64,000 nt of DNA. It comes from Erythrobacter sp. JK5 (GTDB lineage: Bacteria; Pseudomonadota; Alphaproteobacteria; Sphingomonadales; Sphingomonadaceae). The notes beneath the pieces were generated by a model, which saw only the letters and a list, made by a program, of their open reading frames with translations, made no database searches and was not told where the DNA came from. The DNA lies in contig NZ_CP073577.1 in NCBI RefSeq assembly GCF_018205975.1, forward strand, positions 1 through 64,000. The letters run 5' to 3'. Below, piece after piece: positions 20,290-42,460 of the stretch. How positions within the stretch are numbered: position 1 is the first letter of the stretch; each line of letters starts with the position of its first letter. A program made the position numbers and the translations under genes.

Positions 20290-20314
20290 AGCCCCGCGCG
20301 GCTCCCAATCAGGC

Positions 20315-22021
20315 CTAGAACCCGAACAGTACAGTGGCGCGGCTACCGATGTCGCCATCGGCCGTATTGCCGCTGAAACCCGCCGACAGGTACACATCGG
20401 GCGCGATCTCTCCGGTCAGGTTGCCTGCGATCGCCTGTTCGCCGCGATAGTTCGCGACCGACACCGACAGCGAGATCTGCTTGCCCGGAGCAATCGCCGG
20501 ACCGCCCATCGCCATCGCCGCCGCGATCCCGCCGCGGGTGCGTTCGTCGAGATCGTCGAGCTGGAACTCCAGCCCGGTCAGGCGCCCGTCGAGCGCGAGG
20601 ACATTGTTTTCGAGCGCCCCGAACTGCGCGTCGGTCACCTGCGCGAGCGCATTCATCGATACCCGGATGTTGTCGACCGACGCTGCCGTAGCCACCGTTT
20701 GCCGCCCGAGCACACCGTTGCCGTCCACCGTCACTGCCTCGACCGGCCCCTGCTGCGCGGCGGTCGAGGCGGCGATATCGCCGATCCGCACCGCGCTGCC
20801 CGCGCCGCCCAGTGTGACCTGGTTGTCCGCCGTCGTCGTCGCATTCGCGCCGATCGCGGTCGAGCCGTTCTGCGTTACCGTCGCGCCCGCACCGATCGCG
20901 GTCGAATTGGCAAAGCTTGCTCCGATCTGGGTGACGCTGGCACCGTTGCCGATCGCGACCGAATTGGTCCCGTCCGCACCCGCACCCGCGCCGATCGCCA
21001 CCGCGCGGTCTGCGCGCGCTGTCGCATCGAACCCGATGGCGGTGGATTCGATCCCGGTCGCTTCGGTCGAGAACCCGATCGCGGTCGCGCGCACTTCCGG
21101 TGCGAAGGCGGTGTAGCCGATCGCCGTCGCAAACAGGCCGCGCGACTGGGCGAAGCCGCCGACGGCAAGCGCGCCGGTCTCGGTGGCACCTGCTCCGGCA
21201 CCGGTCGCGGTCGCCTGGATCCCGGCCGCATTGGCCTGGAAGCCCAGAGCGGTCGCCTGCACGTTCGACGCAGCGGCCTGATCGCCCAGCGCCGCGGCCG
21301 AGACGTCGGTCGCAGACGCATTCGGACCGATCGCGATCGCATGGTCCGCAGCGACAGTGGCGGAGCGACCGAGCGCGAGACCGCCAAGACCGGTCGAACT
21401 CGCCGCCATTCCCAGCGCAATCGCGCCGTCTTGCGAAGCGAGAGAGTCGGCGCCGAAGGCGATCGATCCCGCACCCAGCGCCTGCGCTCCCAGCGTGTCC
21501 GCATCGTTCGAGGAATCGCCGCCCACCGCGATCGCGCCGTCCGCCGATGCCAGGGTGGCGCGTCCTACCGCGAGCGCGGACGAAGCCGTGGCGAGCGAGG
21601 TGCTGCCGATCGCCACCGCATAGTTGGCCGCTGTCACGCGCGCGTTGAAGCCCAGCGCAACCCCGCCTTCGGTGTCGCCGGTTACCTGCGCGCTGGCGCC
21701 GATCGCGGTGTTGAGACCGAACGTGCCCGAAGCATTGGCGTTGCTGCCGAGCGCGGTGTTCCCGCCATTCGCCCCGCTCGCATTGGCGGCAAACCCGATC
21801 GCGGTGGAGGATGGCCCGGTGGCATCGGCCCCGACTCCGCAGGCGAGTCGTTCGTCGATCCCGTCGCTCGCTGCCCCGCCATCGGTGTCGAGCGTGTCGT
21901 CGGCGACCCCGTTGTCGTTCGTGTCGAGCAGGCAGTCATCGGCCGTGGCAGGACTCGCCAGGAGCGCGCCGGAGCACGCGGCGAGAAGGAGCGCCATCTG
22001 GCGGCTGTTGGATTGGAGCAT
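20315..22021 (-). CDS. Trimeric autotransporter adhesin 1 (YadA/Hia-like)
   Basis: 568 residues. Signal peptide (MALLLAACSGALLASPATA), then a short module with two Cys (DDCLLDTNDNGVADD ... RLACG). The head consists of about 14-residue YadA-type repeats of the AIAIG/ALG xxAxAxG kind with Asp-rich inserts. The conserved neck is NQVTLGGAGSAVRIGDI plus VTVDGNGVLGRQ. A short coiled coil (ALENNVLALDGRLTGLEF) leads to a four-strand anchor ending VLFGF. Three copies would build one outer-membrane barrel displaying the head. The anchor is the GGIAAAMAMG type shared with adhesin 3. It is the smallest of five paralogues and is divergent from the FG-GAP lipoprotein. Confidence 0.9.
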   Translation of the reverse strand: MLQSNSRQMALLLAACSGALLASPATADDCLLDTNDNGVADDTLDTDGGAASDGIDERLACGVGADATGPSSTAIGFAANASGANGGNTALGSNANASGTFGLNTAIGASAQVTGDTEGGVALGFNARVTAANYAVAIGSTSLATASSALAVGRATLASADGAIAVGGDSSNDADTLGAQALGAGSIAFGADSLASQDGAIALGMAASSTGLGGLALGRSATVAADHAIAIGPNASATDVSAAALGDQAAASNVQATALGFQANAAGIQATATGAGAGATETGALAVGGFAQSRGLFATAIGYTAFAPEVRATAIGFSTEATGIESTAIGFDATARADRAVAIGAGAGADGTNSVAIGNGASVTQIGASFANSTAIGAGATVTQNGSTAIGANATTTADNQVTLGGAGSAVRIGDIAASTAAQQGPVEAVTVDGNGVLGRQTVATAASVDNIRVSMNALAQVTDAQFGALENNVLALDGRLTGLEFQLDDLDERTRGGIAAAMAMGGPAIAPGKQISLSVSVANYRGEQAIAGNLTGEIAPDVYLSAGFSGNTADGDIGSRATVLFGF

Positions 22022-22161
22022 TTTCGTACCCTCGCAAGTTTCACCCTCTGTCCACCTTGCGCAACCCTATCGGAAGCCGCACTCCGGGCGAAGCACGATT
22101 GCAAAATCCCCGGCGGCCTGAAACATTGCCTGTCTCGCATTTACGATTCTGGCGGCGCAAA

Positions 22162-23589
22162 GTGGCTCTCGATTTTCGGAAACCGTTTACCGGCGGATTG
22201 ACCGCATGCGGATTACTGCTGGCGAGCTGCGGCAGCGACGAGCCGCAGCTATCCTCCGGCGAAGTCGAGCGCTTCGCTGCGGCGATCGGCAATCAGCGGG
22301 CGGTGCAAGTCCAATCGACCGCAGAAGCGTTCACCTGTTCGACGCCGCAACCCGAATTGCCGCCGGTCGGCACGATCGATTCGGCCGCAATCCCGCTCGT
22401 TCGGGCCGATCTGCGCACGGTCCCGCCGACCGTGCTGCCTTTCACACCGGTCGAGATCGCCTCGGGGTTTACCTATCTCTACGGGATAGAAACCGCCGAT
22501 TACGATTGCGATGGCGAATGGGATGTCAGCCTGTTCAATTCATGGACCGGGCTCTCGCCCGATCCTCGCGGAGCTGTAGGGTTCAACTACTCGGCGGCCG
22601 GCGGGCTTGAGCAGATCACCGATCGCGACACGTGGCCCGGCCTGATCCAGACCGGGCTGTATCTGTTCGAACGGCACAAGGCGCTCGATATCAATGGCGA
22701 CGGGTTTCTCGACATCGTCGGCGCAGGCAATTCCAACGAGGCGTTCATCGCGTACCTCAACCCCGGAGCGACCGATCCCGCTGCGCGCTGGGAAAGGCGC
22801 TATCTTCACACCTTTTCGCCGGGGCCGATCAATCTGGCGATACACGACATGGACGGCGACGGGCTGGAGGACGTCGTGATCTCGCTGCGCATCAACAGCG
22901 GTGGGCCTGCGAACGCGGTAGGCGGGCTGGGCTGGCTCAAGAATCCCGGCCCCCAGAGCTCCGAACGCTGGCTCAAGCGCACGATCGGTCCGTCCGACGA
23001 CCTGCTCGACCCCCGTAACCTGCACGTTGCGGATTTCGACGGCAACGGCCATCCCGATGTCTATGTCAGCGACGCGCGCACGGGCCTCGCATCGACCTAT
23101 TTTCAGACCCCGGCCGGCACGTGGGAGCGGGACCGGATCGCGATCGGTTCGATCAACGGCCATTTCGGTGCCGCGATCGACGAGCAGAACGATGGCGTCC
23201 CGGAAATCGTCCAGCCGATCTTTCAGGGCATCCGTTATCTTCGGTTCGACGAGACAGCGCGCAGCTGGACCTTCCAGACGATCGCGTCCTTCACCATCGA
23301 GGAAAATCCGCTGTACATCGCCGATATCGCGCTCAGCGACATGGATCGCGACGGCCTGACGGACATCGTGTTCAGCGTCGGCTCGCTGTCGACCAGTGCC
23401 ACCGCCCCCCGGCGCGGCGGCATCTTCCTGATGCGGGCGGCGAACAACTGGCAGGTCGAAGCGGTGGCGCAGGCGACCAGCTCGGTGGTCGAACTGAAGC
23501 TGGTCGATTTCGACCGCGACGGGGACACCGATATCGTCGCGAATTTCGAATATCCCGAGAACAAGGCAATCATCTACTACCGCAACTGA
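22162..23589 (+). CDS. FG-GAP/VCBS repeat lipoprotein
   Basis: About 475 residues. I start at GTG 22162, since no ATG lies in frame before the lipobox; a TTG 33 bases upstream is an alternative. The N-terminus GGLTACGLLLASCGSDEP is a lipoprotein signal with the acylated Cys after LLAS. Seven Ca-binding-type loops follow: DYDCDGEWD, DINGDGFLD, DMDGDGLED, DFDGNGHPD, DEQNDGVPE, DMDRDGLTD and DFDRDGDTD, the integrin-like FG-GAP/VCBS beta-propeller pattern. It should be a surface or periplasmic propeller binding calcium; the ligand is unknown. It lies within the adhesin cluster, divergent from adhesin 1, and converges with adhesin 2 over a strong terminator. Confidence 0.85.
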   Translation: MALDFRKPFTGGLTACGLLLASCGSDEPQLSSGEVERFAAAIGNQRAVQVQSTAEAFTCSTPQPELPPVGTIDSAAIPLVRADLRTVPPTVLPFTPVEIASGFTYLYGIETADYDCDGEWDVSLFNSWTGLSPDPRGAVGFNYSAAGGLEQITDRDTWPGLIQTGLYLFERHKALDINGDGFLDIVGAGNSNEAFIAYLNPGATDPAARWERRYLHTFSPGPINLAIHDMDGDGLEDVVISLRINSGGPANAVGGLGWLKNPGPQSSERWLKRTIGPSDDLLDPRNLHVADFDGNGHPDVYVSDARTGLASTYFQTPAGTWERDRIAIGSINGHFGAAIDEQNDGVPEIVQPIFQGIRYLRFDETARSWTFQTIASFTIEENPLYIADIALSDMDRDGLTDIVFSVGSLSTSATAPRRGGIFLMRAANNWQVEAVAQATSSVVELKLVDFDRDGDTDIVANFEYPENKAIIYYRN

Positions 23590-23594
23590 TCCAT

Positions 23595-23623
23595 GCAGCC
23601 GGGGGATGCGCACCCCCGGCTGC
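23595..23623. terminator. Bidirectional terminator hairpin
   Basis: A perfect 11-bp stem, GCAGCCGGGGG (23595-23605) and CCCCCGGCTGC (23613-23623), with a 7-base loop. It sits in the 41-base gap between the convergent FG-GAP and adhesin 2 genes, so it can serve both. Confidence 0.75.
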
Positions 23624-23630
23624 CGGGATT

Positions 23631-26600
23631 TCAGAACTCCCCGGCTACCCCGGCGCGCACGCTGGTGGAATTGCCGCCGGCATAGGTAACGCCGGCGGTG
23701 ATCGCGAAATCGCCTTCGAAGCGGTGCATCAGGCCGAGCGACACCCCGACTTCGCCGCGGTAGGTCGCGACGTTGCTGGCGTAGCTGGTGCGTCCGGCTT
23801 CGCTGGGGAAGTGCGGGTTGGCCTGCGCCGCGATCGAGGCGATCCCGCGCTGGGCATCGCGGTCGATCGTGTCGGTGAGGTCGAACAGCGTCCCGACCTG
23901 CCCTTCGAGCGTGGTCACCCGGCCCGAGAGCGCGGTGAACTGCGCGTCGGTGATCGCCGAGAGCGCGTTCATCGAGATCCGGACATTGTCGACCGAGGCG
24001 GCGGTGGCGACGCTCTGGCGGCCGAGAATGCCGTTGCCGTCGACCGTCACCGCCTGGACCGGGCCGGACTGCGCGGCGGTGGAGGCGGCGATGTCGCCGA
24101 TCCGCACCGCGCTGCCGCTGCCGCCCAGCGTAACCTGATTGGCGGCGGTGGTGGTCGCACCCTTGCCGATCGCGGTCGAGCCCGATTGCGCCGCGATTGC
24201 ACCCGACCCGACAGCCGCCGAATCCGCCCCTTGCGCCCGCGTGCCGAAGCCGATCGCCGTCGCCCTTTCGTTGGTGGCCTGCGCGGTGTTGCCGATCGCG
24301 GTGGCGCGGTCCGCCGGGGCGAAGCTCTGGTAGCCGAGCGAGGTCGAGAACGAGCCGCGGGCATCCGAGAACGCCCCGAAGGCGAGCGCGCCGACGCCAT
24401 TCGCGCGCGAACCTGCACCGACGGCAGTCGACTGCACACCGGTTGCGGTCGTACCCGCGCCGAGCGCCGTGGTGTTCAGGCCCGAAGAGAACGCATCGGC
24501 CCCGACCGAAGTGGTCTGCGTGCCGAGCGCCTGGGCGCCGAGCCTCCCGCTGGGATCAGCGTCGTTCCCGTCACCGCCCAGAGCAAGCGAACCCACTCCG
24601 GTTGCCTGAGCGCGATAGCCAACTGCGCTGGACATTTCCGCCGTGGCCCGCGCACCGACGCCATTGGCAGTTCCAAAGGCCCCAATCGCTTCAGCGACAG
24701 CCCCGGTCGCGGTAGAAAAGAGGGCGGTGGCCTGTGCGCCTACTCCCAATGCAGTGCTTGTTTCACCACTCGCAACCGCGTCTCCTCCAACCGCCGTACC
24801 GTTTAGTCCGCCAGCACTGGCTCGGTCACCGATGGCTGTTGTGAAACCGTTCGACGCAACGCTATCGCCGCCAAGGGCCACCGCATTGTTCCCGGTCGCG
24901 CTCGCAGCAGCGCCGGTCGTGCTCACGGCGAGGAAGGCGCTGCCGCCTCCGCCGCCGGAAACGCCTGCGATGGCGGAGGTAAGCTGGTCGAGATTGACCG
25001 CGTCGGTGCCATTCACGGCCTGCGCTACGTTGACGATCCGCCGCTTGATGACGTCATTCCCGACCGAGACCGTATTCACCTCTGTCGCGACCGACTCCGA
25101 ACCGAGCGCGACCGAATCCTCCGCGAACGCACCGGCGCCGAAGCCGATTGCAATTGCCTCGGTGGCTTGCGTGTTCGCGCTCGGCCCGATCGCGATTCCG
25201 GCAAAACCGTTTGTCGCGCTCGACGATTCGCCGATCGAAATGTTCACGCTGCCATCGGCGTTGGCGAGCGTGCCGATCGCGACCGATGATCCGCCGCTCG
25301 CGCTCGCGCGGTCGCCCAGTGCGGTAGCGCCGTTGGCGCTCGAGGAAGCGTTTTCGCCGATCGCGATGCTGCGGTCGTTGAGGGCGCTGGCGAGGTTGCC
25401 GGTGGCGACGCTGCCTGCGCCGACAGCGCTGGAATTCCCGCCGATGGCGATGGCGTCGTTGCCGCTCGCGTTTGCAGCGGTGCCGGTGGAATTCACGTCG
25501 AGATAGGTGCTCCCACCTCCCCCACCGGATACTCCCGCGATCGCACTGTTGAGCTGTGCCAGGTTCACGGCGTCGGTGTCCTGGGTGCCTGCCGCCACGT
25601 TGATGATCTGCCTTTGCCCGCCGACACCCGTGCTCCCGACGGAGACCGCATTCGCCCGATCCGCATTCGATCCCGAGCCCAAGGCCACGGAGTTGTCAGC
25701 CGTCGCGTTCGCGTTGGCCCCGAGCGCGACCGCGTTCGTTCCCGAAGCGGCGGCCGGTCCAGCGGCGCTGTTCACGACGAGGAAGGGCGTGCCGCCGGCT
25801 GTCACGTTGGTGATCGCGGTGTTCAACTGGCCGAGGGTAACCGCGTCGGATGAACTTGTGCCATCCGCGACGTTCACGATCCGACGCTTGCTGCCTGCGT
25901 TCCCGACCGAGACGGTGTTGGCTTGATCCGCGACCGATGCCGCGCCAAGGGCTATCGAGTTCTCGGCTGAAGCGGAGGCATCGGCACCCAAGGCTACTGC
26001 ATTGAGCGCACTGGCCGTCGCGCCAAACAGGCCTGCGGTGTCGTCGTCCGGACCATCGCCGCCCAGAGCGACCGCACCTGCGGCCGTTGCCTGCGCGCTC
26101 TCGCCGACGGCGGTCGACCCGTTTGCGGTTGCGTCCGCACCGACGCCGACGGCGGTTGCGGCTTCGTCTGTGGCCTCGGCGAAACTACCAAGCGCCGTCG
26201 CGAAATCTCCCGTTCCATCGGCACCGAAGCCCGCTGCGGTGGCAAACCGGTTTGTCGCCGTGGATTGGGCGCCAATTGTGAGAGCGCCTTCGCCAACCGC
26301 CGATGCCGAACCGCCGATTGCAATCGCAAAGTTCGGTATCTCAAGATTGACGCCCGTGTTTGCGCCTTGTCCAATTGCGATGTTCTGCAGGCCTTCGGCC
26401 GTCGACTGCTGACCCAGCGCGACAGCGCCGACGCCGCCGCTGCGCGATAGCCGCCCGATTGCGATGGCACCGGTATTGCCGGAAGATGCGCCATCGCTGC
26501 TCCCGGCTCCGCCGCCGATGGCGATGGAGCCTTCGGTTGCGGCAAAAGTGCCAAAACCCAGCGCGAGCGAGCCTGCGCCTCGAGAGCTTGAAAGAAACCC

Positions 26601-27080
26601 GAGCGCGACAGCGCTCGAAGCTTCGGCTTGCGCCGATCCGCCAATTGCTATGGTCCAGAAGCTGGTCGAATCCGCGCCGTTGCCGATTGCAATTGCGCCC
26701 AGTTCCGAAGCCTCGGTAACCGTGCCGATTGCGATCGAGACGTCGCCACTTGCATTGCCGAACAGCGAGATTGCCGCATCACCGGTCGACACAACGCCGT
26801 TGCCGATCGAGATCCCGGTATTCGAGCTGGCACCATTGCCGATCGCTACGCCGCTATTGGTGCTTGAACTGTTTCCGACCGCGAGGCCTCCGGTAGTCCC
26901 GACATCCGCATCCACACCGCATTCCAGCCCAACATCATCCGCGGTGTTCGGCGTCATGTCGGGGCCGGTGCCCTCGTTGCACTCCGGCGTGGCATCCGCG
27001 CGCGCTTCCTGCGGCGTCGCCAGCACACTCACGGCAACACCCACGCTCAAGGCGGTCGAAAGCAGCAATCTGGTCTTCAT
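23631..27080 (-). CDS. Trimeric autotransporter adhesin 2, largest (1149 aa)
   Basis: 1149 residues. Signal peptide (LLLSTALSVGVAVSVLATPQEARA), a two-Cys N-terminal module (TPECNEG ... LECGVD), and a long YadA-type head. Three internal stalk/neck units interrupt the head, each with a (T/A)VSVGN or AVSVG segment, R-(R/Q)-I-(V/I)-NVA and DAV(T/N)L-QL, and each is followed by a glycine-rich turn and a new head segment (TPFLVVNS, STYLDVNS, SAFLAVST). The conserved neck NQVTLGGSGSAVRIGDI and a coiled coil (VTTLEGQVGTLFDLTDTI) lead to an RDAQRGIASIAAQANPHFP anchor ending AGVAGEF. That anchor is nearly the same as in adhesin 4. The start codon follows a ribosome-binding site buried in an inverted repeat. 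Confidence 0.92.
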   Translation of the reverse strand: MKTRLLLSTALSVGVAVSVLATPQEARADATPECNEGTGPDMTPNTADDVGLECGVDADVGTTGGLAVGNSSSTNSGVAIGNGASSNTGISIGNGVVSTGDAAISLFGNASGDVSIAIGTVTEASELGAIAIGNGADSTSFWTIAIGGSAQAEASSAVALGFLSSSRGAGSLALGFGTFAATEGSIAIGGGAGSSDGASSGNTGAIAIGRLSRSGGVGAVALGQQSTAEGLQNIAIGQGANTGVNLEIPNFAIAIGGSASAVGEGALTIGAQSTATNRFATAAGFGADGTGDFATALGSFAEATDEAATAVGVGADATANGSTAVGESAQATAAGAVALGGDGPDDDTAGLFGATASALNAVALGADASASAENSIALGAASVADQANTVSVGNAGSKRRIVNVADGTSSSDAVTLGQLNTAITNVTAGGTPFLVVNSAAGPAAASGTNAVALGANANATADNSVALGSGSNADRANAVSVGSTGVGGQRQIINVAAGTQDTDAVNLAQLNSAIAGVSGGGGGSTYLDVNSTGTAANASGNDAIAIGGNSSAVGAGSVATGNLASALNDRSIAIGENASSSANGATALGDRASASGGSSVAIGTLANADGSVNISIGESSSATNGFAGIAIGPSANTQATEAIAIGFGAGAFAEDSVALGSESVATEVNTVSVGNDVIKRRIVNVAQAVNGTDAVNLDQLTSAIAGVSGGGGGSAFLAVSTTGAAASATGNNAVALGGDSVASNGFTTAIGDRASAGGLNGTAVGGDAVASGETSTALGVGAQATALFSTATGAVAEAIGAFGTANGVGARATAEMSSAVGYRAQATGVGSLALGGDGNDADPSGRLGAQALGTQTTSVGADAFSSGLNTTALGAGTTATGVQSTAVGAGSRANGVGALAFGAFSDARGSFSTSLGYQSFAPADRATAIGNTAQATNERATAIGFGTRAQGADSAAVGSGAIAAQSGSTAIGKGATTTAANQVTLGGSGSAVRIGDIAASTAAQSGPVQAVTVDGNGILGRQSVATAASVDNVRISMNALSAITDAQFTALSGRVTTLEGQVGTLFDLTDTIDRDAQRGIASIAAQANPHFPSEAGRTSYASNVATYRGEVGVSLGLMHRFEGDFAITAGVTYAGGNSTSVRAGVAGEF

Positions 27081-27083
27081 CGT

Positions 27084-27113
27084 CAGTCCCTTTCACTCAA
27101 CTCGAAGGGACTG
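27084..27113 (-). promoter_or_regulatory. Inverted repeat covering the adhesin 2 ribosome-binding site
   Basis: In the message sense CAGTCCCTT (27113-27105) can pair over all nine bases with AAGGGACTG (27092-27084). AAAGGGA is the only purine-rich candidate ribosome-binding site and lies just upstream of the ATG at 27080. Folding would hide it, so translation could depend on melting, a protein or an sRNA. This is a structural reading only; no regulator is known. Confidence 0.5.
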
Positions 27114-27226
27114 CGACCCAGTGTGTCACATGCAATTTGCGCGCCCCTGTGATTCGGCACAAAAACGCTGCGATGCGCATTTGTCCTGTATCACAGCGAC
27201 ATTTTTGTAGATTTGCGACAAGTTGC

Positions 27227-27262
27227 CGGTACGGGGTGGCGAATACGCAACACCCCGTACCG
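27227..27262 (-). terminator. Terminator hairpin after adhesin 3
   Basis: A perfect 12-bp stem, CGGTACGGGGTG (27227-27238) and CACCCCGTACCG (27251-27262), with a 12-base loop. It lies just past the adhesin 3 stop, about 150 bases before the adhesin 2 start. This suggests adhesin 2 has its own promoter in 27114-27226, a noticeably AT-rich stretch. Confidence 0.65.
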
Positions 27263-27280
27263 CTATCGGATAGATGGGGC

Positions 27281-29809
27281 CTAGAACCCGAAGGCGAACC
27301 CGGCCTGCGCGATCACGTCGCCTTCGCCGGTATTGCCCGCGACGCCTGCGGTCAGCGCGAAGTTCTCGGTCGCGCGGCCGACCAGCGTCAGCGCATAGCC
27401 CTGCTCGCCGCCATAGGTCGCGACGTTGCCGGCGACGACGAAGTCCTTGTCGGGCAGGGCGATGGCGCTGCCAAGCGCTGCCGCCGCCGCAATCCCGCCG
27501 CGCGCACGGGCGTCGACATCCTCGAGCCGGAATTCGAGACCGGAGACCCGGCTGTCGAGCGACATGACCTGGCCGGAGAGCTGGTTGAACTGCGCGTCGG
27601 TGATTGCCGAGAGCGCGTTGATCGAGGTGCGCACGTTCTGCACGGAGGCCGCGGTTGCAACCTGCTGGCGACCGAGCGTGCCGTTCTGGTCCACGGTGAC
27701 GACATCGACCGGCCCTTGCTGGGCGAGGGTCGAAGCCTCGATATCGCCGATCCGCACCGCACTGCCGGTCCCGCCAAGCGTCACCTGGTTCGCCGCCGTA
27801 GTGGTCGCACCCGTGCCGACGGCCGTGGAGGCGGTGAAATCCGCAGTGGCTCCGTTGCCGATCGCGGTTGCCTGATCCGCGCGGGCGAGCGCCTGCCGCC
27901 CGATGGCGGTGGCGTTTTCGCCGGTCGCCTGCGAGGCGCTGCCGATTGCGGTGGATTGCAGCGCCGGGGCAAAGCTCGCGAAGCCAAGCGCGGTCGACTG
28001 GTTGCCGCGCGCCTGGCTGAATGCACCAAACGCCAATGCACCCACACCGCTTGCACCGGCCCCCGCGCCCACAGCCGTGGATTGCACGCCGCTCGCATTC
28101 GAACCCGCACCCAGCGCGCTCGTGTTGAGACCCGAGGCGAACGCATCCGCACCCAGCGCCGTGGTCTGCTGACCCGTGGCCCGCGCGCCCAGGAAGTCGC
28201 TATCGAGCCCATCGCCGCCAATCGCGATCGATGAGGTCGCCTCGGCGCTCGCTTCCTGGCCCAGCGCAATCGAACCTTTTCCCAAAGCGAACGTAAAGGC
28301 CCCCAGCGCGACCGATTCCTCGCCTTCAGCAAACGCGTTGTTGCCGATCCCGATGGCCGATCTGGCGAGCGCGCTGGACCCGAAGCCGAGCGCCGTTCCA
28401 ACCGGACCCGAAGCTACGGTCTGGTTGCCGAGAGCGACCGAGAGTGCACCGGTTGCCCGCGCTCCTCGCTGAGCCTCGGGAATGACTCCGGGGTTGACCG
28501 ATCCGATGGCAATCGAGCCCTGCTGCGTGGCCTGGGCATCGAAGCCGATGGCGATCGTGGCCCGGTCGCTGGCGAGGCTGTTGTGCCCCAATGCGGTGGT
28601 TTTGTCGCCGTTGGCGAGCGCGCCGGCACCGACCGCGGTCGCGTCGCGGGCAGTGGCCTGTGCGGCATGGCCCAGCGCAGTTGAGGATGTGCCGCTTGCC
28701 CTTGAGTCATTGCCGAAGGCTGAAGCGGATAACGCCAACGCATCCGCATTTTCGCCGACCGCCGTCGCACGATCCCTATTGGCGTTAGAGAAAACCCCGA
28801 TCGAGATCGCTCCATTGCCACGCGAGTCGCTCCTATTGCCGATGGCAACGCCCGAACTGTCCTGCGCAAATGCACTGATACCGATCGCCACCGAAGCATT
28901 GCCTTGAGCCAAGGCATTGGAGCCCAGCGCGGTCGAGTCATTCCCCCTTGCCCGCGCATTCTGGCCGACTGCGGCGGCATTGATATTGGTCGCTTGCGCG
29001 CCCGCACCGATGGCGACGGTTTCCGCGAAGCTTGCCGTCGCATCCGCGCCCAGTGCAACCGAACGGTCGCCCGTCGCCTGCGCGCCGACATCCGATGCGT
29101 CACCGTCTGCGCCGATCGCGATCGCTGCATCGCCGCTAGCTGTCGAGCTTTCACCGATGCTGATGGCGCGGCGCGCGGTGGCAGCGGCAAGTGTGCCCAG
29201 GGCAAGCGCGTCCATGCCGGAAGCGGTGGTGACGGTACCCAGTGCGATGGTGCGCTCATTGTTGGCAATGGCGCGATCGCCGATTGCGGTGGATGAGATG
29301 CCCGAAGCGAGCGAGTCCGCACCGATGGCGATGGACAAGTCGCCGGTTGCCTGGGCACCGGTTTCGCCGATATCGTTGCTGTCGCCGCCGATCGCGATGG
29401 CTGTCACCCCGGTTGCCTCGGCAAACGGGCCGAGAGCGGTCGCATCTGGACCAGTTGCCACGCTGTTCCTTCCAAACGCCGCTGCATCCCGACCGGTTGC
29501 GTTCGATCGCGAACCGACCGCGGTCGAACCGAAACCGTTGCTGGCATTGGCGCGGAATCCGATCGCGGTGTTCGCATCGATATTGCCGCTGGCATCCGCT
29601 TCGGCACCAAATGCCGTGTTTGCAGAACTGGTGCCCGACGCATCGGCGGCGTTGCCGCAAGCGGTGTTCTCTTCCCTGGTTCCGCCGTCGTCGGGAGGCG
29701 TGGAAGTTGGCACTCCCTCATTCGAGCATTCTGTCGCAGCCGCCGGAGCGGGCTGGAAGGCGAACAGGGCGCAGGTCGCTGCGCCGGTGAGGAGAAGAAG
29801 CTTGTTCAT
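27281..29809 (-). CDS. Trimeric autotransporter adhesin 3
   Basis: 842 residues from the ATG at 29809, which opens the signal peptide MNKLLLLTGAATCALFAF and follows AGGAG by eight bases; the frame upstream is ignored. The N-terminal module has two Cys (ATECSNEG ... NTACGNA). The head is an uninterrupted array of YadA-type 14-residue repeats with several Asp-rich inserts (for example GGDGLDSDFLGARATG). The distal head from TTALGADAF to the neck is almost identical to adhesins 4 and 5. The anchor is the GGIAAAAALG type ending GFAFGF, like adhesin 1. It probably follows adhesin 4 in a transcript; the gap is 121 bases. Confidence 0.92.
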   Translation of the reverse strand: MNKLLLLTGAATCALFAFQPAPAAATECSNEGVPTSTPPDDGGTREENTACGNAADASGTSSANTAFGAEADASGNIDANTAIGFRANASNGFGSTAVGSRSNATGRDAAAFGRNSVATGPDATALGPFAEATGVTAIAIGGDSNDIGETGAQATGDLSIAIGADSLASGISSTAIGDRAIANNERTIALGTVTTASGMDALALGTLAAATARRAISIGESSTASGDAAIAIGADGDASDVGAQATGDRSVALGADATASFAETVAIGAGAQATNINAAAVGQNARARGNDSTALGSNALAQGNASVAIGISAFAQDSSGVAIGNRSDSRGNGAISIGVFSNANRDRATAVGENADALALSASAFGNDSRASGTSSTALGHAAQATARDATAVGAGALANGDKTTALGHNSLASDRATIAIGFDAQATQQGSIAIGSVNPGVIPEAQRGARATGALSVALGNQTVASGPVGTALGFGSSALARSAIGIGNNAFAEGEESVALGAFTFALGKGSIALGQEASAEATSSIAIGGDGLDSDFLGARATGQQTTALGADAFASGLNTSALGAGSNASGVQSTAVGAGAGASGVGALAFGAFSQARGNQSTALGFASFAPALQSTAIGSASQATGENATAIGRQALARADQATAIGNGATADFTASTAVGTGATTTAANQVTLGGTGSAVRIGDIEASTLAQQGPVDVVTVDQNGTLGRQQVATAASVQNVRTSINALSAITDAQFNQLSGQVMSLDSRVSGLEFRLEDVDARARGGIAAAAALGSAIALPDKDFVVAGNVATYGGEQGYALTLVGRATENFALTAGVAGNTGEGDVIAQAGFAFGF

Positions 29810-29930
29810 GGTTGAACTCCTGTTGATGAGCCCGAAATCGGGCTTCGACCTCCCATTGCCGCCCGGCGGCGTTGGGTGCGGTAATTCGGGATTTCGCCGC
29901 GCATCTGGCTGAGTATCGCGGGGCGCTGGC

Positions 29931-32045
29931 TCAGAACTCGCCCGCGATCCCGGCACGCACGGCGGTCGAATTGCCGCCCGCGTGGCTGACCCCGGCGGTG
30001 ATCGCGAAGTCGCCTTCGAGCCGGTGCATCAGGCCGAGCGAGAAGCCGACTTCGCCGCGATAGGTCGCGACGTTGCTGGCGTAGCTGGTTTTGCCCGCCG
30101 CCGATGGGAAGTGCGGATTGGCCTGCGCCGCGATCGAGGCGATGCCGCGCTGCGCGTCGCGGTCGATCGTGTTGGCGAGGTCGAACGCGCCCTCGATCTG
30201 GCCTTCGAGCGTGGTCACCCGGCCCGCCAGCGCATCGAACTGCGCGTCGCTGACGGCGGCAAGGGCGTTGATCGAGGTGCGGACGTTCTGGACCGACGCG
30301 GCTGTTGCCACTTGCTGACGGCCGAGCACGCCGTTGGCATCCACCGTCACCGCATCGACCGGTCCGGACTGGGCCGCAGTGCTGGCTTCGATATCGCCGA
30401 TCCGCACTGCACTGCCGGTGCCGCCGAGGGTGACCTGATTGGCCGCCGTGGTGGTCGCCCCGGTGCCGACGGCGGTCGAGGCCGAGAAGTCGGCGGTGGC
30501 ACCGTTGCCGATCGCGGTTGCCTGATCCGCGCGGGCCAGTGCCTGCCGCCCGATCGCGGTGGCGTTTTCGCCGGTTGCCTGCGCTGCGCTGCCGATCGCG
30601 GTCGCCTGTAGTGCCGGGGCAAAGCTCGCAAAGCCGAGCGCGGTCGAGAAGTTGCCGCGTGCTTGGCTGAATGCGCCGAAGGACAGCGCACCCACACCGC
30701 TCGCGCCTGCGCCCGCACCAACAGCGGTGGACTGCACGCCCGCAGCGCTGGCACCCGCACCGAGCGCGGTGGTGTTCAGACCCTCTGCAAAAGCATCCGC
30801 ACCGAGAGCGGTGGTCTGCTCACCGGTCGCCTGCGCGCCCAAGCGATCATTATCCAGACCGTCTGCGCCGATGGCGATCGATGCGGTTCCACTTGCCACG
30901 GTAAACCGGCCCATACCGATTGCACGCTCTCCGGATACTTGAACTGTGACACCAAGACCGATCGCATCTGCGCCGCTGACTTCGGAGTTTAATCCAACCG
31001 CGATGGCATTGTCAGCGATGGCGCGACTGGACTGACCGATCGCGATTGCCTCGCTTTCACTGGCCCGGCTTAAGCCACCAATCGAAACCGACTGTCTTCC
31101 CAACGCATTCGATGCAGCACCGATTGCGATAGCGCTGAGATCTGTCGCTTCGGCGCTCACTCCGATTGCGATCGTTTGGGTCCGACTCGCGGTCGCGCGA
31201 TTCCCCAGTGCGACACCGCCGCTGCCCGATGCCGAGGTATCTGCGCCGATTGCCACGGCTTGGTCGCCGGATGCCTGCGCGCCGAGGGGGTCTTCGTCGG
31301 ACCCGTCAGCGCCAATCGCGACGGAACTGGTGCCGGTCGCATTCGATAATGAGCCAAGAGCAAGCGAGCGTGTGCCCCCCGCGTTCGAGCTAAACCCGAA
31401 CGCAGCGCTTGCGATGCCGCTGGCACTTGCAAACGGACCGACAGCGACCGCGGCCTCTTCGACTGCGTCGGCAAACCTGCCTACGGCAAGGGAGTTATCG
31501 AACGTGGCTTTGGCAGATTGCCCCAAAGCGATAGCCGCCTGGCCCGATGCCAAGGCATCGGTCCCGATGGCGATAGCGTCAAAAGCGGAAGCGAGAGCCG
31601 CAGTCTCGCCGGCGTCAGCGCTATCGGTCCCGATTGCAATGGAACGATTGCCCGACGCCTCTGCGCCAAAACCGAGGGCAGTGGCTTCGGTGCTGGCAAT
31701 CGCGAAACTTCCGATTGCGGTTGCTTCCAGGCCGGGCGCCTCTGCGAATGAACCGACTGCCGTTGCATTACCTCCTGTCGCTACGGAGTTCGCGCCGAGC
31801 GCAGAGGTGTTGGATCCCTCTGCCTTAGCTTCCGAGCCAACCGCCGTGCTTCGGTTGGCCAAAGCCCGCGCTTGCGGCCCGCACGCCAGCGCATCGTTGC
31901 GACCAAAGCTTTCTGCACCGGCGGTGCTGTCGCCGTTGCTGTTGTCGTTGTTGTCGAGAAAGCAATCCTCGGCGGCGGCGGGTGCGGGCTGGAGGGCGAA
32001 CAGGGCGCAGGTCGCTGCGCCCGAAAGCAGAATGAGTTTCTTCAT
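29931..32045 (-). CDS. Trimeric autotransporter adhesin 4
   Basis: 704 residues. Signal peptide MKKLILLSGAATCALFAL, closely similar to adhesin 3, then an Asp/Asn-rich two-Cys module (EDCFLDNNDNSNGDS ... LACGPQ). The head has YadA-type repeats with Asp-rich inserts (GADGSDEDPLGAQASG, GADGLDNDRLGAQATG). The distal head and neck match adhesins 3 and 5, while the anchor (RDAQRGIASIAAQANPHFP ... AGIAGEF) matches adhesin 2. The gene thus combines the two lineages. Its upstream region (32046-32282) holds an inverted repeat at the ribosome-binding site and a 12-bp tandem repeat. Confidence 0.92.
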   Translation of the reverse strand: MKKLILLSGAATCALFALQPAPAAAEDCFLDNNDNSNGDSTAGAESFGRNDALACGPQARALANRSTAVGSEAKAEGSNTSALGANSVATGGNATAVGSFAEAPGLEATAIGSFAIASTEATALGFGAEASGNRSIAIGTDSADAGETAALASAFDAIAIGTDALASGQAAIALGQSAKATFDNSLAVGRFADAVEEAAVAVGPFASASGIASAAFGFSSNAGGTRSLALGSLSNATGTSSVAIGADGSDEDPLGAQASGDQAVAIGADTSASGSGGVALGNRATASRTQTIAIGVSAEATDLSAIAIGAASNALGRQSVSIGGLSRASESEAIAIGQSSRAIADNAIAVGLNSEVSGADAIGLGVTVQVSGERAIGMGRFTVASGTASIAIGADGLDNDRLGAQATGEQTTALGADAFAEGLNTTALGAGASAAGVQSTAVGAGAGASGVGALSFGAFSQARGNFSTALGFASFAPALQATAIGSAAQATGENATAIGRQALARADQATAIGNGATADFSASTAVGTGATTTAANQVTLGGTGSAVRIGDIEASTAAQSGPVDAVTVDANGVLGRQQVATAASVQNVRTSINALAAVSDAQFDALAGRVTTLEGQIEGAFDLANTIDRDAQRGIASIAAQANPHFPSAAGKTSYASNVATYRGEVGFSLGLMHRLEGDFAITAGVSHAGGNSTAVRAGIAGEF

Positions 32046-32053
32046 GGATGGTG

Positions 32054-32087
32054 TCCCTGTCGGCGAAGAGGTTGATCTTTGCAGGGA
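32054..32087 (-). promoter_or_regulatory. Inverted repeat at the adhesin 4 ribosome-binding site
   Basis: In the message sense TCCCTG (32087-32082) can pair with CAGGGA (32059-32054), which is the likely ribosome-binding site eight bases before the ATG at 32045. The stem is only six bases with a 22-base loop, so this is weaker than the adhesin 2 case but of the same design. Confidence 0.35.
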
Positions 32088-32200
32088 TGGAGCCGGGCCG
32101 GATTGGGGGGGCTGGTCAGTAAGGCGGGCCTGATTGCCTTGTGCAAACAGGCCCTACCCTACCGGCAAGACACCATCCCTGCGCGATCATCGATACGCGT

Positions 32201-32236
32201 CCAGCGTTGGAGCCAGCGTTGGAGCCAGCGTTGGAA
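32201..32236. repeat. 12-bp tandem direct repeat, three copies
   Basis: CCAGCGTTGGAG at 32201-32212 and 32213-32224, then CCAGCGTTGGAA at 32225-32236; a degenerate fourth copy (TTCAGCGTTGAA) begins at 32245. It lies between the end of the SARP-like regulator gene and the start of adhesin 4, about 160 bases upstream of the adhesin. Each unit contains the near-palindrome CCAGCGTTGG. It is a candidate regulator-binding site. Confidence 0.6.
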
Positions 32237-32282
32237 TCGCGCAATTCAGCGTTGAAATTGCGCCATTTCCTGCACTCTCGCT

Positions 32283-33908
32283 CTATTTCGTCAGGAATTC
32301 GCGCACCAACCGGATGAATTCGTCCGAAGCGGGCTCGCGGCCCAGCAGCAGGTGATTGGCGCTTTCGAGGCTGGCGAATCGCGCGTTGGGGATGCGCCCT
32401 GCGAGCGAGCGTCCGGTCGCAAGCGGAATGCGCTGGTCGCCGCGACTGTGAAGCACAAGCGTGGGGCACTGGACCTCGGCGAGCCGATGACGCACGTCGA
32501 TGGTCGAGAACGCTTCGAGAAACCGCACGGCGTTCTGCGCCGAGGTCGTGAGCCGCTGGAACTCGTCGAACCAGGTCAGCTCCTCAGCCGTCGCATCGGG
32601 CATGAAAGTCTGGCTGAACATATGGCGATAGGCGGGGTTGTCGCTGCCCCAGCCGGTTTCTGTCAGCACCATCACCGCCTCGCGCTCGCGCACTTCGTCG
32701 GGCGTCGCCACATGCCGCCAGCCGCAATCGTAGGCGCCGAACAGGATCAGGTGTGAAACGCGTTCCGGATAACGTGCCGCGTATTCGATCGATACCGCCG
32801 CGCCCTGGCTGATGCCGAGCAGCGGAAACCGGTCGAGCCCGGCGGCGTCGACGACTTTCTCGAGGTCGTTGACGAAACTTTCGAAGGTGATTTCGGCTGC
32901 GTCCCAGTCCGACAGGCCGCAGCCGCGTTCGTCATAGCGCACCAGGCGGAAAGACCCCGAGAGCTCGCGGAACAGGGGGCTCCAGATCGGCGCTTCCCAA
33001 TCGAGCTCGAGATGGTTGAGCCAGTTCGCCGCCTTGACCAGCGGCGGGCTGTCCTGCGCGCCGACGCTTGCCCAGGCGATCGAGACGCGGTCGCAGGTAT
33101 CGACGAAGCGGATCGACTGTTCGGGGATCGGCGCGTGGCCGATGGCAGCGCCGGGCGCGGCTGGTCCGAAAAACCTCGGCGGTTCGAGCTCGGCCTCGCC
33201 GAAGCGCCGCTCAAGCATTGCGGCGAGTTCGTGTGCCGCGTCCTTGCCTGCCAGCGCATGCCGCGTTTCGACCGCGCAGCGCGCCGCGCCAGCGTCGAAC
33301 GGAGACCCTTCCAGCCAGCGCTGCGCCCAGCGATCGCGCTCGTCTCCCTGCAGCGCTTCCAGCTGGGCGTAATGCGCTGCCAGTCGCGATCGAGCCTGTT
33401 GCAACTCGGCCCGGCGCCGATCAAGCCAGGCAGTGAAACCCTGCTGGTTGGGCATTTCGCAATCCTCGAGCAGCGTTCCGTTACCGATCTGCCACAGGGA
33501 TTCGGCTGCTTCAGACGACGGGCGGTCGGCGCTCAGCGCGCGGTCGATATCGAGTTCGAGATCGGCGCGGTCGAGCCAGACGTTCTGGCGATCCGAGCGG
33601 AGCCGTTCGACCCCGCCGGCATTGAGCACCGGGCGCAACTTGCTGAGCGACCAGCGCAGCGCGGCGCGCGGATCGTCGGGCGTATCCCACAGCAGGTCGC
33701 ACAGCGCCTGGCGTGCATGGGTGCCGCTCGAAAGTGCGAGATATGCCATCAACGCGCGGGTCTTGCGCGAGGCGGGGAGCGGCAGCTCGGCCCCGTCATG
33801 CAGCGCGGCGAGCGGCCCGATGGTGCGGATATCCAACGTCACATCGACACTCGCAAGCGGTTGAGAACGTGGCAGAGCATAGGTCCGCTTTGCCGCCGCG
33901 CCAACCAT
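32283..33908 (-). CDS. SARP/BTAD-like regulator fused to an alpha/beta hydrolase
   Basis: 541 residues. Residues about 25-115 look like the OmpR/SARP winged helix (RKTRALMAYLAL, ALCDLLWDTPDDPRAALRWS, LSKLRPVLNAGGVERL), followed by a BTAD-like helical region to about 245. The C-terminal half is an alpha/beta hydrolase with nucleophile Ser367 in GISQGA, Asp491 in SRGDQR and His519 in SANHLL; YDERGCGLSDW is the oxyanion-side loop. Such fusions could sense a small ester or lactone; whether it still hydrolyses is unknown. It is the only regulator in the adhesin cluster, on the same strand, 57 bases after adhesin 5. ATG at 33908. Confidence 0.8.
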   Translation of the reverse strand: MVGAAAKRTYALPRSQPLASVDVTLDIRTIGPLAALHDGAELPLPASRKTRALMAYLALSSGTHARQALCDLLWDTPDDPRAALRWSLSKLRPVLNAGGVERLRSDRQNVWLDRADLELDIDRALSADRPSSEAAESLWQIGNGTLLEDCEMPNQQGFTAWLDRRRAELQQARSRLAAHYAQLEALQGDERDRWAQRWLEGSPFDAGAARCAVETRHALAGKDAAHELAAMLERRFGEAELEPPRFFGPAAPGAAIGHAPIPEQSIRFVDTCDRVSIAWASVGAQDSPPLVKAANWLNHLELDWEAPIWSPLFRELSGSFRLVRYDERGCGLSDWDAAEITFESFVNDLEKVVDAAGLDRFPLLGISQGAAVSIEYAARYPERVSHLILFGAYDCGWRHVATPDEVREREAVMVLTETGWGSDNPAYRHMFSQTFMPDATAEELTWFDEFQRLTTSAQNAVRFLEAFSTIDVRHRLAEVQCPTLVLHSRGDQRIPLATGRSLAGRIPNARFASLESANHLLLGREPASDEFIRLVREFLTK

Positions 33909-33927
33909 CGATGGCTTGCATGGCGCG

Positions 33928-33951
33928 GGGCGGCCGCAATTCTGGCCGCCC
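33928..33951 (-). terminator. GC hairpin between adhesin 5 and the regulator gene
   Basis: GGGCGGCC (33928-33935) and GGCCGCCC (33944-33951) form a perfect 8-bp stem with an 8-base loop, in the 57 bases between the adhesin 5 stop and the regulator ATG. No T-run follows, so it may only partly terminate or act in the regulator leader. Confidence 0.4.
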
Positions 33952-33965
33952 GCCCCTTGCGCAGA

Positions 33966-36329
33966 TCAGAACCCCAGCGTGATCCCGACCCGTCCCGCGG
34001 TCTTGCCGTCCTTGTTGAAGCCGGTTGCCACCCCGGCATTGACCGCGACATTCTCGCTCACCAGCGCGCCGATCGTGAACGCCCCGGCATGCGCGCCGTC
34101 ATAGGTGCCGACATTGGCGCTGAGGCTGAAACTGGTGTTCGGCAGGAAAGTCGTGCCGCCCATCGCTACCGCCACTGCGGTCGAGCTGGCGATCTCGTCG
34201 CCGAGCAGCTCGACCTCTCCTTCGAGCAGATCGAGGCGCCCCTCGGTCAAGCTCACCCGCCCGGACAGCGCGTTGAACTGCGCGTCGGTTACCGCCGAGA
34301 GCGCGTTCATCGAGACCCGGATATTGTCGACCGAGGCGGCGGTAGCGACGCTCTGGCGGCCGAGTATGCCGGTGCCGTCGACCGTCACCGCCTGCACCGG
34401 CCCCTGCTGCGCGGAGGTGGAGGCGGCGATATCGCCGATCCGTACCGCGCTTCCGGTTCCGCCCAGCGTCACCTGGTTGGCGGCGGTGGTGGTCGCTCCG
34501 GTGCCGACGGCGGTCGAGGCGGTGAAGTCCGCCGTCGCGCCGTTGCCGATCGCGGTTGCCTGATTGGCGCGGGCGAGTGCTGCCCGCCCGATGGCGGTGG
34601 CGTTCTCGCCCGTCGCCTGCGAAGCGCTGCCGATCGCGGTCGATTGCAGCGCTGGCGCGAAGCTGGCGTATCCCAGCGAGGTCGAGAAGTTGCCGCGCGC
34701 CTGCGAGAACGCGCCGAACGCCAGCGCGCCGACTCCGCTCGCGCCTGCACCCGCACCCACGGCGGTCGATTGCACCCCGGTCGCGCTGGTTCCCGCGCCG
34801 AGCGCCGAGGTGTTGAGTCCTTGCGCCACCGCATCCGCGCCCAGCGCCGTGGTCTGCTGACCCGTAGCCTGCGCTCCGAGGGTATCGCCGTCCAGACCGT
34901 CCCCGCCGATGGCAATCGCGCCTGGATTCGTAGCCGACGCAAATGGTCCGAGTGCCGTTGCATTGTCGCCGCTGCCGATTGCGCCGCGACCGACCGCAAC
35001 AGCGAGCGAGCCACCGGCTTGCGCTACGGCTCCCAGTGCAGTGCCGCTGGAGCCTTGTGCGCTGCTCATGAACCCCAGCGCAGTTCCGCCGTTGCTTGCA
35101 GCGCTCAAGGCGCCCAACGCGGTCGAGCCCACAGCATTGGCAGACGCGCCCGCTCCTACGGCCGTCGCATTGGAGGAGCTGGCAAGGCTGGACCTGCCGA
35201 TCGCGACCGATTGAAGACCGCCGGCGTTGGCCAGCGTGCCGATGCCCAGCGAATCCTGACCGCCGGCAGTCGCGCTTTCGCCGAAGGCTATCGATGCCTG
35301 TCCGTTGGCATTGGTGAAGCGCCCGATGGCGATGGCCTGGATCGCGCCGACATTGGCGGTCGATCCCAGCGCAATCGAGTCGGTGAAGTCCGCCACCGCA
35401 TCGGGTCCGATGGCGATGGAAAAATTACCGGTCGCCTGCGCGCCAAGCGCATCGGCATCGCCCGCGTCCCCGCCAATGGCAATTCCGTTGATCCCGGTTG
35501 CGTTGGTTCCTGATCCGACCGCGATGGAACTCACACCTCCGGCAGCAGCATTTCGTCCGACGCTGGTTGCATCGCTCATGGTAGCCGATGCTCCAACTCC
35601 CAATGCCGTGGCAAACAATCCGGTCGCCTGGGCATTATGGCCCAGTGCGCTACTTCCTTGCATCGTAGCCTGAGAGAAGACCCCGACACTGGTCGAGAAG
35701 CTCCCGCTTGCCAGCGAAATGTAGCCGAACGCCGCACTTTCCTGGCCAGTCGAACGGGCGCCGGCTCCTACCGCCGTGCTGGGGGAACCCGAAGCGACGC
35801 TATCGGCACCGATTGCGACTGAACTGGGCGCGGTTGCCTGAGCGCCGAAGGTGTCGCCATCGGTCCCATCGCTGCCGATGGCGATGGAGTCCGCCCCGCT
35901 CGCAAACGCCAGCAATCCCACGGCAATAGAACCGCTTCCTTGCGCGGTAGTGCTCCGACCGACTGCGGTTGCCCCTGCCGCAGTGGCGACAGCAGAATTT
36001 CCAATCGCGACCGTCCCTGGGGCCACCGCATCGGAAAACGCTCCGACCGCGAGCGAGGCACTGCCGGTTGCTTCGGCAAAATTGCCGATCGCGGACGAGT
36101 TGGTTCCGGTCGCCAAGGAGTTGGCACCGCATGCAAGCCTGCCGTCGTCACCACCTGAATCCGCATTCAGATCGGTATCGACATTGGTATCGGCATTGCC
36201 GTCGTTGTTGGTATCGAGCAGGCAATCGTCGGCGCGGGCCGGTTGCGGCAATCCTGCCAGCATGGCGAGGCCGATCCCGGCGGCTCCAGCAAGCGTGAGC
36301 GCACGAACCGATAGATTGATGATTTTCAT
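33966..36329 (-). CDS. Trimeric autotransporter adhesin 5
   Basis: 787 residues from the ATG at 36329 (signal peptide VRALTLAGAAGIGLAMLAGL ending PARA); GGAGGG lies upstream. The N-terminal two-Cys module is rich in Asp/Asn (DDCLLDTNNDGNADTNVD ... RLACG), like thrombospondin type-3 Ca loops. The head is one long YadA-repeat array with Asp-rich inserts (GSDGTDGDTFGAQATA, GGDAGDADALGAQATG, GGDGLDGDTLGAQATG). The distal head matches adhesins 3 and 4. The anchor (VAVAMGGTTFLPNTSF ... VGITLGF) is a third, distinct type. A longer coiled coil (LTEGRLDLLEGEVELLGDEI) precedes it. First gene of the same-strand block. Confidence 0.92.
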   Translation of the reverse strand: MKIINLSVRALTLAGAAGIGLAMLAGLPQPARADDCLLDTNNDGNADTNVDTDLNADSGGDDGRLACGANSLATGTNSSAIGNFAEATGSASLAVGAFSDAVAPGTVAIGNSAVATAAGATAVGRSTTAQGSGSIAVGLLAFASGADSIAIGSDGTDGDTFGAQATAPSSVAIGADSVASGSPSTAVGAGARSTGQESAAFGYISLASGSFSTSVGVFSQATMQGSSALGHNAQATGLFATALGVGASATMSDATSVGRNAAAGGVSSIAVGSGTNATGINGIAIGGDAGDADALGAQATGNFSIAIGPDAVADFTDSIALGSTANVGAIQAIAIGRFTNANGQASIAFGESATAGGQDSLGIGTLANAGGLQSVAIGRSSLASSSNATAVGAGASANAVGSTALGALSAASNGGTALGFMSSAQGSSGTALGAVAQAGGSLAVAVGRGAIGSGDNATALGPFASATNPGAIAIGGDGLDGDTLGAQATGQQTTALGADAVAQGLNTSALGAGTSATGVQSTAVGAGAGASGVGALAFGAFSQARGNFSTSLGYASFAPALQSTAIGSASQATGENATAIGRAALARANQATAIGNGATADFTASTAVGTGATTTAANQVTLGGTGSAVRIGDIAASTSAQQGPVQAVTVDGTGILGRQSVATAASVDNIRVSMNALSAVTDAQFNALSGRVSLTEGRLDLLEGEVELLGDEIASSTAVAVAMGGTTFLPNTSFSLSANVGTYDGAHAGAFTIGALVSENVAVNAGVATGFNKDGKTAGRVGITLGF

Positions 36330-36331
36330 GG

Positions 36332-36370
36332 CTTTACCCTCCAGGCCCGGCTGCCTCGAAAAAGGTAAAG
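36332..36370 (-). promoter_or_regulatory. Inverted repeat next to the adhesin 5 ribosome-binding site
   Basis: In the message sense CTTTACC (36370-36364) can pair with GGTAAAG (36338-36332), which directly follows and partly overlaps the GGAGGG ribosome-binding site before the ATG at 36329. A GC-rich inverted pair (GCCCGGC/GCCGGGC) lies in the same leader and could compete. Confidence 0.35.
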
Positions 36371-36616
36371 GTGGCCGGGCGATCCCGTGTTGATCGAGTC
36401 CGCGGCCCAGCAATGCTTGCGCTGTTGATACCGGCGCAATCCGCAGAGTTTCTGCCCTTTCCCGCCTTCCGTCAATCGCGAGCGGGGCCTCGGGCGAACC
36501 GGGCGATCCGCAGTGACTCCCGGGGCGATGGATCGACCAAGGCGGTGACCGCGTTTGATCCTGCGAGCGAGCACCACCGTTGCTTTGCAAGGCGGATTGG
36601 CGGAGGATCACGGACG

Positions 36617-37495: not shown

Positions 37496-37569
37496 CTGCC
37501 CGAAGGCGGTTGAATGTCTCGCGGTATGTGTCATTATTGCAGGCGGGGCTGGCACATGGAGCAATTCAT

Positions 37570-40402
<2,833 letters not shown>

Positions 40403-42295: not shown

Positions 42296-42334
42296 GAGGG
42301 AACCTCGTGCCTAGTTGATAGGCGCGCCATAACC

Positions 42335-42391: not shown

Positions 42392-42460
42392 GCGAAACTC
42401 GAGTCTTTAGAGTCACTTAGCTGATATTGACTAACCACCTGATTCTGTTACATTAAATCC

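Follow-up and report, generated by a model that had tools for sequence, protein, structure and literature searches.

The window analysed here, the first 64,000 nucleotides of contig NZ_CP073577.1 (assembly GCF_018205975.1) from Erythrobacter sp. JK5, carries at 20315..36329 five minus-strand genes for YadA-type trimeric autotransporter adhesins (TAAs, type Vc), designated A to E, and among them a single regulatory gene, R. Why should one regulator lie inside an array of adhesin genes, and how are those genes related to each other and to the site that they occupy? From sequence comparison, the locus is probably an inherited hotspot occupied by an array of TAA genes, with one regulated cassette among them in the order R - operator - leader - D.

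The regulator, its candidate operator and the leader

Gene R (32283..33908, minus strand) encodes a 541-aa protein with a SARP-type DNA-binding domain, a BTAD domain and an alpha/beta hydrolase. Its predicted fold contains the OmpR-type winged helix and the BTAD by which SARP regulators are recognized, and the SARP-type assignment draws on this fold and on profile evidence; the N-terminal half of the window R alone found no Pfam match even at E 10. The hydrolase domain has RsbQ (1wpr) among its fold matches and carries an intact triad, a claim that is based on 80 wider loci collected by other motifs because the motif used to collect the R alignment A3 (21 of 42 scanned loci) already held the triad serine and aspartate. 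Of 114 genomes of the genus, 12 have a full-length R, which adjoins a TAA gene in five of them (G000, G004, G070, G093, and G133).

Between the stop codon of R and the start of D lies an operator-like array (32201..32236, minus strand) of three 12-bp direct repeats, YTCCAACGCTGG, with a fourth AACGCT that begins at 32253, 21 nt upstream on the gene strand. A matrix built from three loci (the window, G133, and G004) gives a score of 52.9 for the window, and 100 shuffled 64-kb sequences, read on one strand each, reached 22.5 at most. The array pattern has a single match in the window genome when up to 1 mismatch is allowed. A like array separates divergent R and TAA genes in G133 and also lies between R and a TAA gene in G004. 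A score of at least 14 is reached at 23 of 29 other full-length R loci (from the genus, the family and, for one, the order), while shuffled 4.5-kb loci scored on both strands gave 8.2 at the 95% level, 11.5 at the 99% level and a maximum of 19.1 in 300. Eleven of the 23 arrays are downstream of R on its own strand and 12 are upstream on the opposite strand; the distance from R is no more than about 85 nt for 21 of them, and ~450 nt (G093) and ~800 nt (G151) for the others. Since 12 of the 23 have the array on the opposite flank of R, the genes after R in the family loci were left out of the reading. Of the 80 wider R loci, some of which come from the same species, 47 score at least 14 at a distance of up to 600 nt from R (shuffled 1.2-kb sequences: 99% level 10.8, maximum of 800, 17.2). 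R-family genes with 12-bp arrays were seen in Alpha- and Gammaproteobacteria and in a few records of other phyla (loci L254-L333).

Exact matches to the array pattern number ten in the 114 genomes. Eight are beside R (G000, G004, G062, G080, G129, G133, and twice in G088), and the other two are upstream of TAA genes away from R (G080, G133); it is the positions of these matches that are used, not their number. The 41 matches with one mismatch are not counted as evidence because a reversed control pattern gave a larger number. A count of sigma-70 consensus promoters was uninformative, with 2 found against 1.6 expected.

The array is directly followed by a structured leader (32081..32182, minus strand), which has an outer stem of 10 bp and a long inner stem and ends 35 nt before the ATG of D; the fold of 32070-32191 has a z of -5.8. 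The element is generally ~100 nt long, with an outer stem of 9-14 bp and a long inner stem, and its fold energy lies 4.0-7.3 standard deviations below dinucleotide shuffles in all seven leaders tested. In each of 15 leaders, 30-42 nt separate the 3' end from the start codon. Covariation was counted in 15 leaders from nine genomes of three genera (G077 and G080 contribute seven leaders), on a structure taken from folds of the same sequences; on this basis, paired double-change cells numbered 51 against 22.5 in shuffles (0/500), with 8-17 in slid controls, and the covariation score was 0.352 against 0.201 (0/500). Two measures were weaker, namely how many pairs show any double change (13 against 10.0, 21/500) and how many further pair types occur (39 against 35.2, 26/500). 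The outer stem is paired in 94.9% of cells.

A covariance model run over 91 loci gave matches at the leader places only, plus three weak ones on their opposite strands. Across the genus its strong matches fall in 7 genomes, all R-bearing (p=1.9e-8, in a test that ignores phylogeny), with weak matches in two R-less genomes (E 9e-4 and 0.007), and in a family sample of 397 the leader was found in G266 and G267, both with R, and weakly in G294 (E 0.009). In Rfam neither the window leader (at the gathering threshold) nor leaders from six other loci (at E<=5) had a match. The idea that the outer stem works as a ribosome-site switch was rejected as a general mechanism, as its 3' arm can form at least six pairs with the ribosome site in only 6 of the 14 leaders with the right start codon (G004 was left out). 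At 560-840 of locus L109 in G133, a TAA-like gene (588-aa frame) has the array and then a different long hairpin.

The initial annotation had described R as a dedicated-looking regulator, and this view has gained support, as R-linked 12-bp arrays and the leader precede D and recur before TAA genes in R-bearing relatives. Arrays stand before dispersed TAA genes in G077 (four), G080 (three), G088 (one), and G133 (one). TAAs are present in 11 of 12 R-bearing genomes and in 31 of 102 others (Fisher p=5.8e-5, again ignoring phylogeny), with a mean of 3.6 TAA anchors against 0.6. A genome of another genus, G266, has the order TAA - R - array - leader - TAA, as in the window; the end of its first TAA is delta-like by eye, yet no Pfam anchor is listed for it. 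The contrary proposition, that R is not linked to TAAs in relatives, was overturned by the anchor search and the wider loci. Judged from sequence, the link between R and TAAs is strong and not obligatory.

The adhesin genes and their genomic site

Domain matches confirm A to E as the five YadA/Hia-like minus-strand genes that had been proposed. YadA_head (Pfam) matches all five, with E between 1.5e-34 and 1.2e-82, and a hydrophobic stretch is visible by eye at every N-terminus. Gene A (20315..22021, 568 aa) has a beta-type anchor, B (23631..27080, 1149 aa) an alpha-type anchor, C (27281..29809, 842 aa) a gamma-type anchor and E (33966..36329, 787 aa), the end of which is 57 nt ahead of the start of R, a delta-type anchor. 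Gene D (29931..32045, 704 aa), the proposed target of R, is a mosaic of a C/E-like module and a B-like anchor. The C-termini were checked against the Pfam YadA_anchor profile, whose cut-off is passed by B and E and narrowly missed by C and D (by 0.2 and 1.3 bits); A is weak (E 0.007, with YadA_head at 1.5e-34), but its anchor reaches 94% identity with those of TAA genes in other genomes, and the placement in the YadA anchor family stands. These Pfam scores are independent of the anchor profile A1, the scores of which are circular for the window anchors because A1 contains those five. The 60 YadA_head matches listed for the 3.34-Mb genome (150 of 189 candidates scored) and its five anchor matches all fall inside the cluster.

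The neck that was said to be shared by the adhesins is indeed common to A, C, D, and E, as a module reading ..NQVTLGG.GSAVRIGDI..AVTVD.NG.LGRQ.., but it differs from the classical YadA stalk motif, and a YadA_stalk match is found in B alone. The relations among the genes depend on which part is compared. Each of the five anchors has its closest counterpart in another genome at 90-94% identity, whereas anchors of different classes inside the window are 27-45% identical. The head-neck modules of C, D, and E, by comparison, are 92-96% identical; C and D share 96% in the module and 45% in the anchor. The DNA that B, C, D, and E have in common extends for ~620-680 nt and ends 274-289 nt short of the stop codon, with the exception of B and D, in which a match of 916 nt continues to the gene end, the anchors are 89% identical and the modules 68%. 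A comparable boundary is found in G027, where two TAA genes on separate contigs share 700 bp at 97.6% that end at the anchor boundary, beyond which the anchors differ.

This pattern was quantified with 46 of 66 anchored TAA genes (20 were left out for having no neck motif, or one too far from or near an end). Modules of gene pairs with different anchors are on average 79.7% identical in the same genome (62 pairs) and 58.3% in different genomes (768 pairs), and none of 2000 label permutations equalled the observed same-genome likeness. These comparisons support the view that anchors are old orthologous classes and that head-neck modules have been exchanged among genes with different anchors, recombination between paralogues being the simplest reading of the head-neck likeness. 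Passengers would thus be renewed by swapping modules among paralogues while the anchors remain in their old classes. In G077 and G080, array and leader are near-identical before several dispersed TAA genes (L114, L115, L117, L119, L127, L128, and L130), as if the promoter regions had been homogenised as well. The suggested role in surface variation is supported in this evolutionary sense, and no sign of switching within a culture was seen. Tandem Repeats Finder gave seven short rows for 19000-37500 and nothing in the genes that would be called a phase-variation tract, and phase variation by simple repeats was rejected. The informative rows are two intergenic ones at 32201-32267.

The site itself appears to be an inherited one. 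TAA heads were found in 13 of 61 genomes; TAA anchors, sought across 114 genomes of the genus, were found in 42. The flanks, an S9 peptidase and thiC, are found in 24/61 and 57/61 genomes, and in many of them an amidohydrolase and two metallo-hydrolases lie between the two. Of 20 syntenic stretches that were fetched, seven hold a TAA between peptidase and thiC (six by heads, L076 by anchor) and the remaining 13 had none found there. The anchor scan of individual loci missed some anchors that the genus-wide search recovered (the long gene of L097 and second genes of G098 and G134). At the same site G133 has five TAAs with anchors of types gamma, delta, another, alpha, and beta, and the window order is E(delta)-R-D(alpha)-C(gamma)-B(alpha)-A(beta). 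By these sequence comparisons, the S9 peptidase/amidohydrolase ... thiC site is a patchily occupied TAA hotspot in the genus. Because occupancy and anchor sets vary among relatives, the arrangement in the window is read as one of the states that an inherited and variable TAA site can take, and a comparison across relatives, proposed earlier as a check, thus does reveal varying TAA numbers.

Several further observations concern the site and its surroundings. The amidohydrolase gene of the window (18051-19357, plus strand) looks frameshifted because it is split over two overlapping frames, 18051-18779 and 18656-19357. A TPP riboswitch (38390-38503, plus strand; Rfam RF00059, 57.8 bits) is located 5' of thiC, and just past thiC, at 41000-43000, G+C falls to 0.60 and 0.55 from about 0.65. 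Broken-looking TAA genes were seen at 5214-8155 of L086 (G030), in two frames, and at 10470-11289 of L094 (G004), degenerate 3' of the leader and adjoining R.

Proposed control of D and its alternatives

As modelled, R would be a SARP-type transcription activator with its C-terminal alpha/beta hydrolase probably serving as a small-molecule sensor. It would bind the 12-bp direct repeats just upstream of the D promoter and bring in RNA polymerase, in the manner of AfsR and other SARPs at direct repeats; such binding is suggested by the fold, by the layout of the repeats and by co-occurrence. The D transcript would start near the foot of the stable hairpin leader, which keeps the ribosome site accessible and probably determines how stable the mRNA is or how well it is translated. 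Within the window the target of R would be D, and perhaps also C and B by read-through, these lying 121 and 200 nt downstream, and E, ending 57 nt before R, may drive R. Because the same operator and leader precede up to four dispersed TAA genes in relatives, R probably governs a TAA regulon.

A number of observations speak against this model. The array is missing by threshold from 6 of the 29 test loci and 33 of the 80 wider ones, and 5 of 16 loci that match the hydrolase half of R alone also score at least 14. In the window itself A, B, C, and E have neither array nor leader. G018 has R and no TAA, the TAA-rich genomes G006 and G121 (the latter 86% complete) have no R, and the association tests take no account of phylogeny. 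In six of the 12 R-bearing genomes R adjoins a DUF4915-like gene (G018, G062, G088, G129, G080, and G094; profile-tested for the G080 copy only), and just one of the 80 wider R loci has a TAA by the head-repeat pattern, because of which TAA control is regarded as one local function of a regulator family that extends more widely. The linkage to antibiotic gene clusters that SARPs show in Actinobacteria was not encountered in this genus, where the neighbours of R are TAA or DUF4915-like genes, but its lack lowers only the claim to an antibiotic-type SARP and not membership of the fold family. The DUF4915/TIGR03032-like neighbourhoods (L095, L182, L249, L179, L180, and L251) have the 12-bp array and no leader match, and in G018 R is also behind a PKHD-type hydroxylase.

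An alternative possibility is that the array is the operator of R itself or of a neighbouring gene, the adjacent TAA being incidental and R having no adhesin role. The 12 of 23 arrays that lie upstream of R on the opposite strand could serve R or the divergent gene, arrays occur throughout Proteobacteria, and they accompany R where its neighbour is not a TAA (G018, G062, G129, G088, and G080). Such a reading would leave unexplained the seven arrays with leaders before TAA genes distant from R in G077 and G080 and the two exact matches before TAAs away from R, as well as a leader that goes with arrays before TAAs and not with DUF4915-like R loci, and it is considered rather unlikely. The leader could instead be a palindromic mobile element or a terminator and not a regulatory or stabilising RNA, as its very long, near-perfect stems and the near-identical copies at several G077 and G080 loci might suggest. 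This too is doubtful, since the element keeps its constant place before the start codon, is confined among the 91 loci to those places, has stem pairs that covary and is without a strong match in the R-less genomes of the genus.

An ordinary adhesin expansion, in which duplicated TAAs are under general regulation with no special circuit, has precedent in the tandem and dispersed TAA paralogues of other Alphaproteobacteria (Bartonella and Brucellaceae) and would suit A, B, C, and E, which are without the array. It has to contend with the co-occurrence of array, leader and R, and with anchors that, apart from those of B and D, are old classes with close counterparts elsewhere and not recent copies of each other; its probability is judged to be low. 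Lower still is that of the FG-GAP repeat lipoprotein (22162..23589; FG-GAP_3 E 9.3e-23) being an outer-membrane partner of the TAAs, as the initial annotation, which saw only this lipoprotein and R between the adhesins, had suggested it may be. R is on the minus strand with the adhesins, but the lipoprotein gene lies on the plus strand, where it diverges from A and converges with B. Its position between A and B and an N-terminus that is lipoprotein-like by eye favour a partnership; no full-length homologue was found in 60 relatives (one weak 91-residue match), though 12 of them carry TAA heads, and the five-TAA site in G133 yielded no match either. On these grounds the partner role was discarded. 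The protein is probably outside the adhesin system, and perhaps its gene is a recent acquisition.

Relation to known systems and significance

Tandem TAAs, TAA recombination and SARPs are all already known. Like YadA, BadA, AtaA, and SadA (type Vc TAAs), the window genes have YadA_head repeats and a YadA-like anchor, but the classical stalk is here limited to B, and a distinct neck module is common to genes with differing anchors. The Vomp TAA genes of Bartonella quintana are arranged in tandem, and the Vomp family resembles the present array in having several TAA paralogues, among which recombination has been suggested; here, however, the head-neck module is shared while the anchors differ, and a regulator cassette lies inside the array. 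RsbQ-type hydrolases serve as sensors, and RsbQ shares with R the alpha/beta hydrolase, the intact triad and a possible function as signal receptor, although in R the hydrolase is fused to a DNA-binding protein. EmbR is a SARP, as are AfsR, ActII-ORF4, and DnrI. According to a review, SARPs recognise direct repeats of a heptamer, two or three in number, the classical unit being 11 bp (PMC10972967). R resembles these regulators in its DNA-binding domain and BTAD fold and in direct repeats, often three, as the (here candidate) binding site. It differs in the 12-bp unit, the alpha/beta hydrolase partner domain, the occurrence in Proteobacteria and the adhesin genes in place of antibiotic genes. 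For Moraxella UspA1, UspA2, UspA2V, and UspA2H, recombination is reported to move passenger segments between TAA genes (PMC3458076), as proposed here; exchange there is between uspA1 and uspA2, whereas here as many as six dispersed genes, of several anchor types, would take part in a single genome, with modules up to 100% identical. TAA recombination and paralogues are also known in Brucellaceae (PMC7688925). A literature search, with most subscription journals outside it, found no paper on trimeric autotransporter adhesins in Erythrobacter, no SARP fused to an alpha/beta hydrolase and no report joining SARP, BTAD, direct repeats, and Proteobacteria.

It is about an even chance that the locus represents an undescribed adhesin-control cassette, in which a hydrolase-fused proteobacterial SARP would read an ester- or lactone-like signal through its alpha/beta hydrolase domain, and a cognate 12-bp triple-repeat operator and a new leader RNA family would precede interchangeable TAAs with passengers swapped between anchors, the regulator-operator pair being widespread beyond adhesins. 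The likeness of modules within a genome across anchor classes provides a natural experiment on modular adhesin evolution. At one adhesin locus, sequence brings together a regulator, the operator that it is likely to use and a leader RNA. Because the R family is spread widely in Proteobacteria, with a similar 12-bp repeat code at 47 of 80 loci, it may become possible to predict the targets of the family from genomes.

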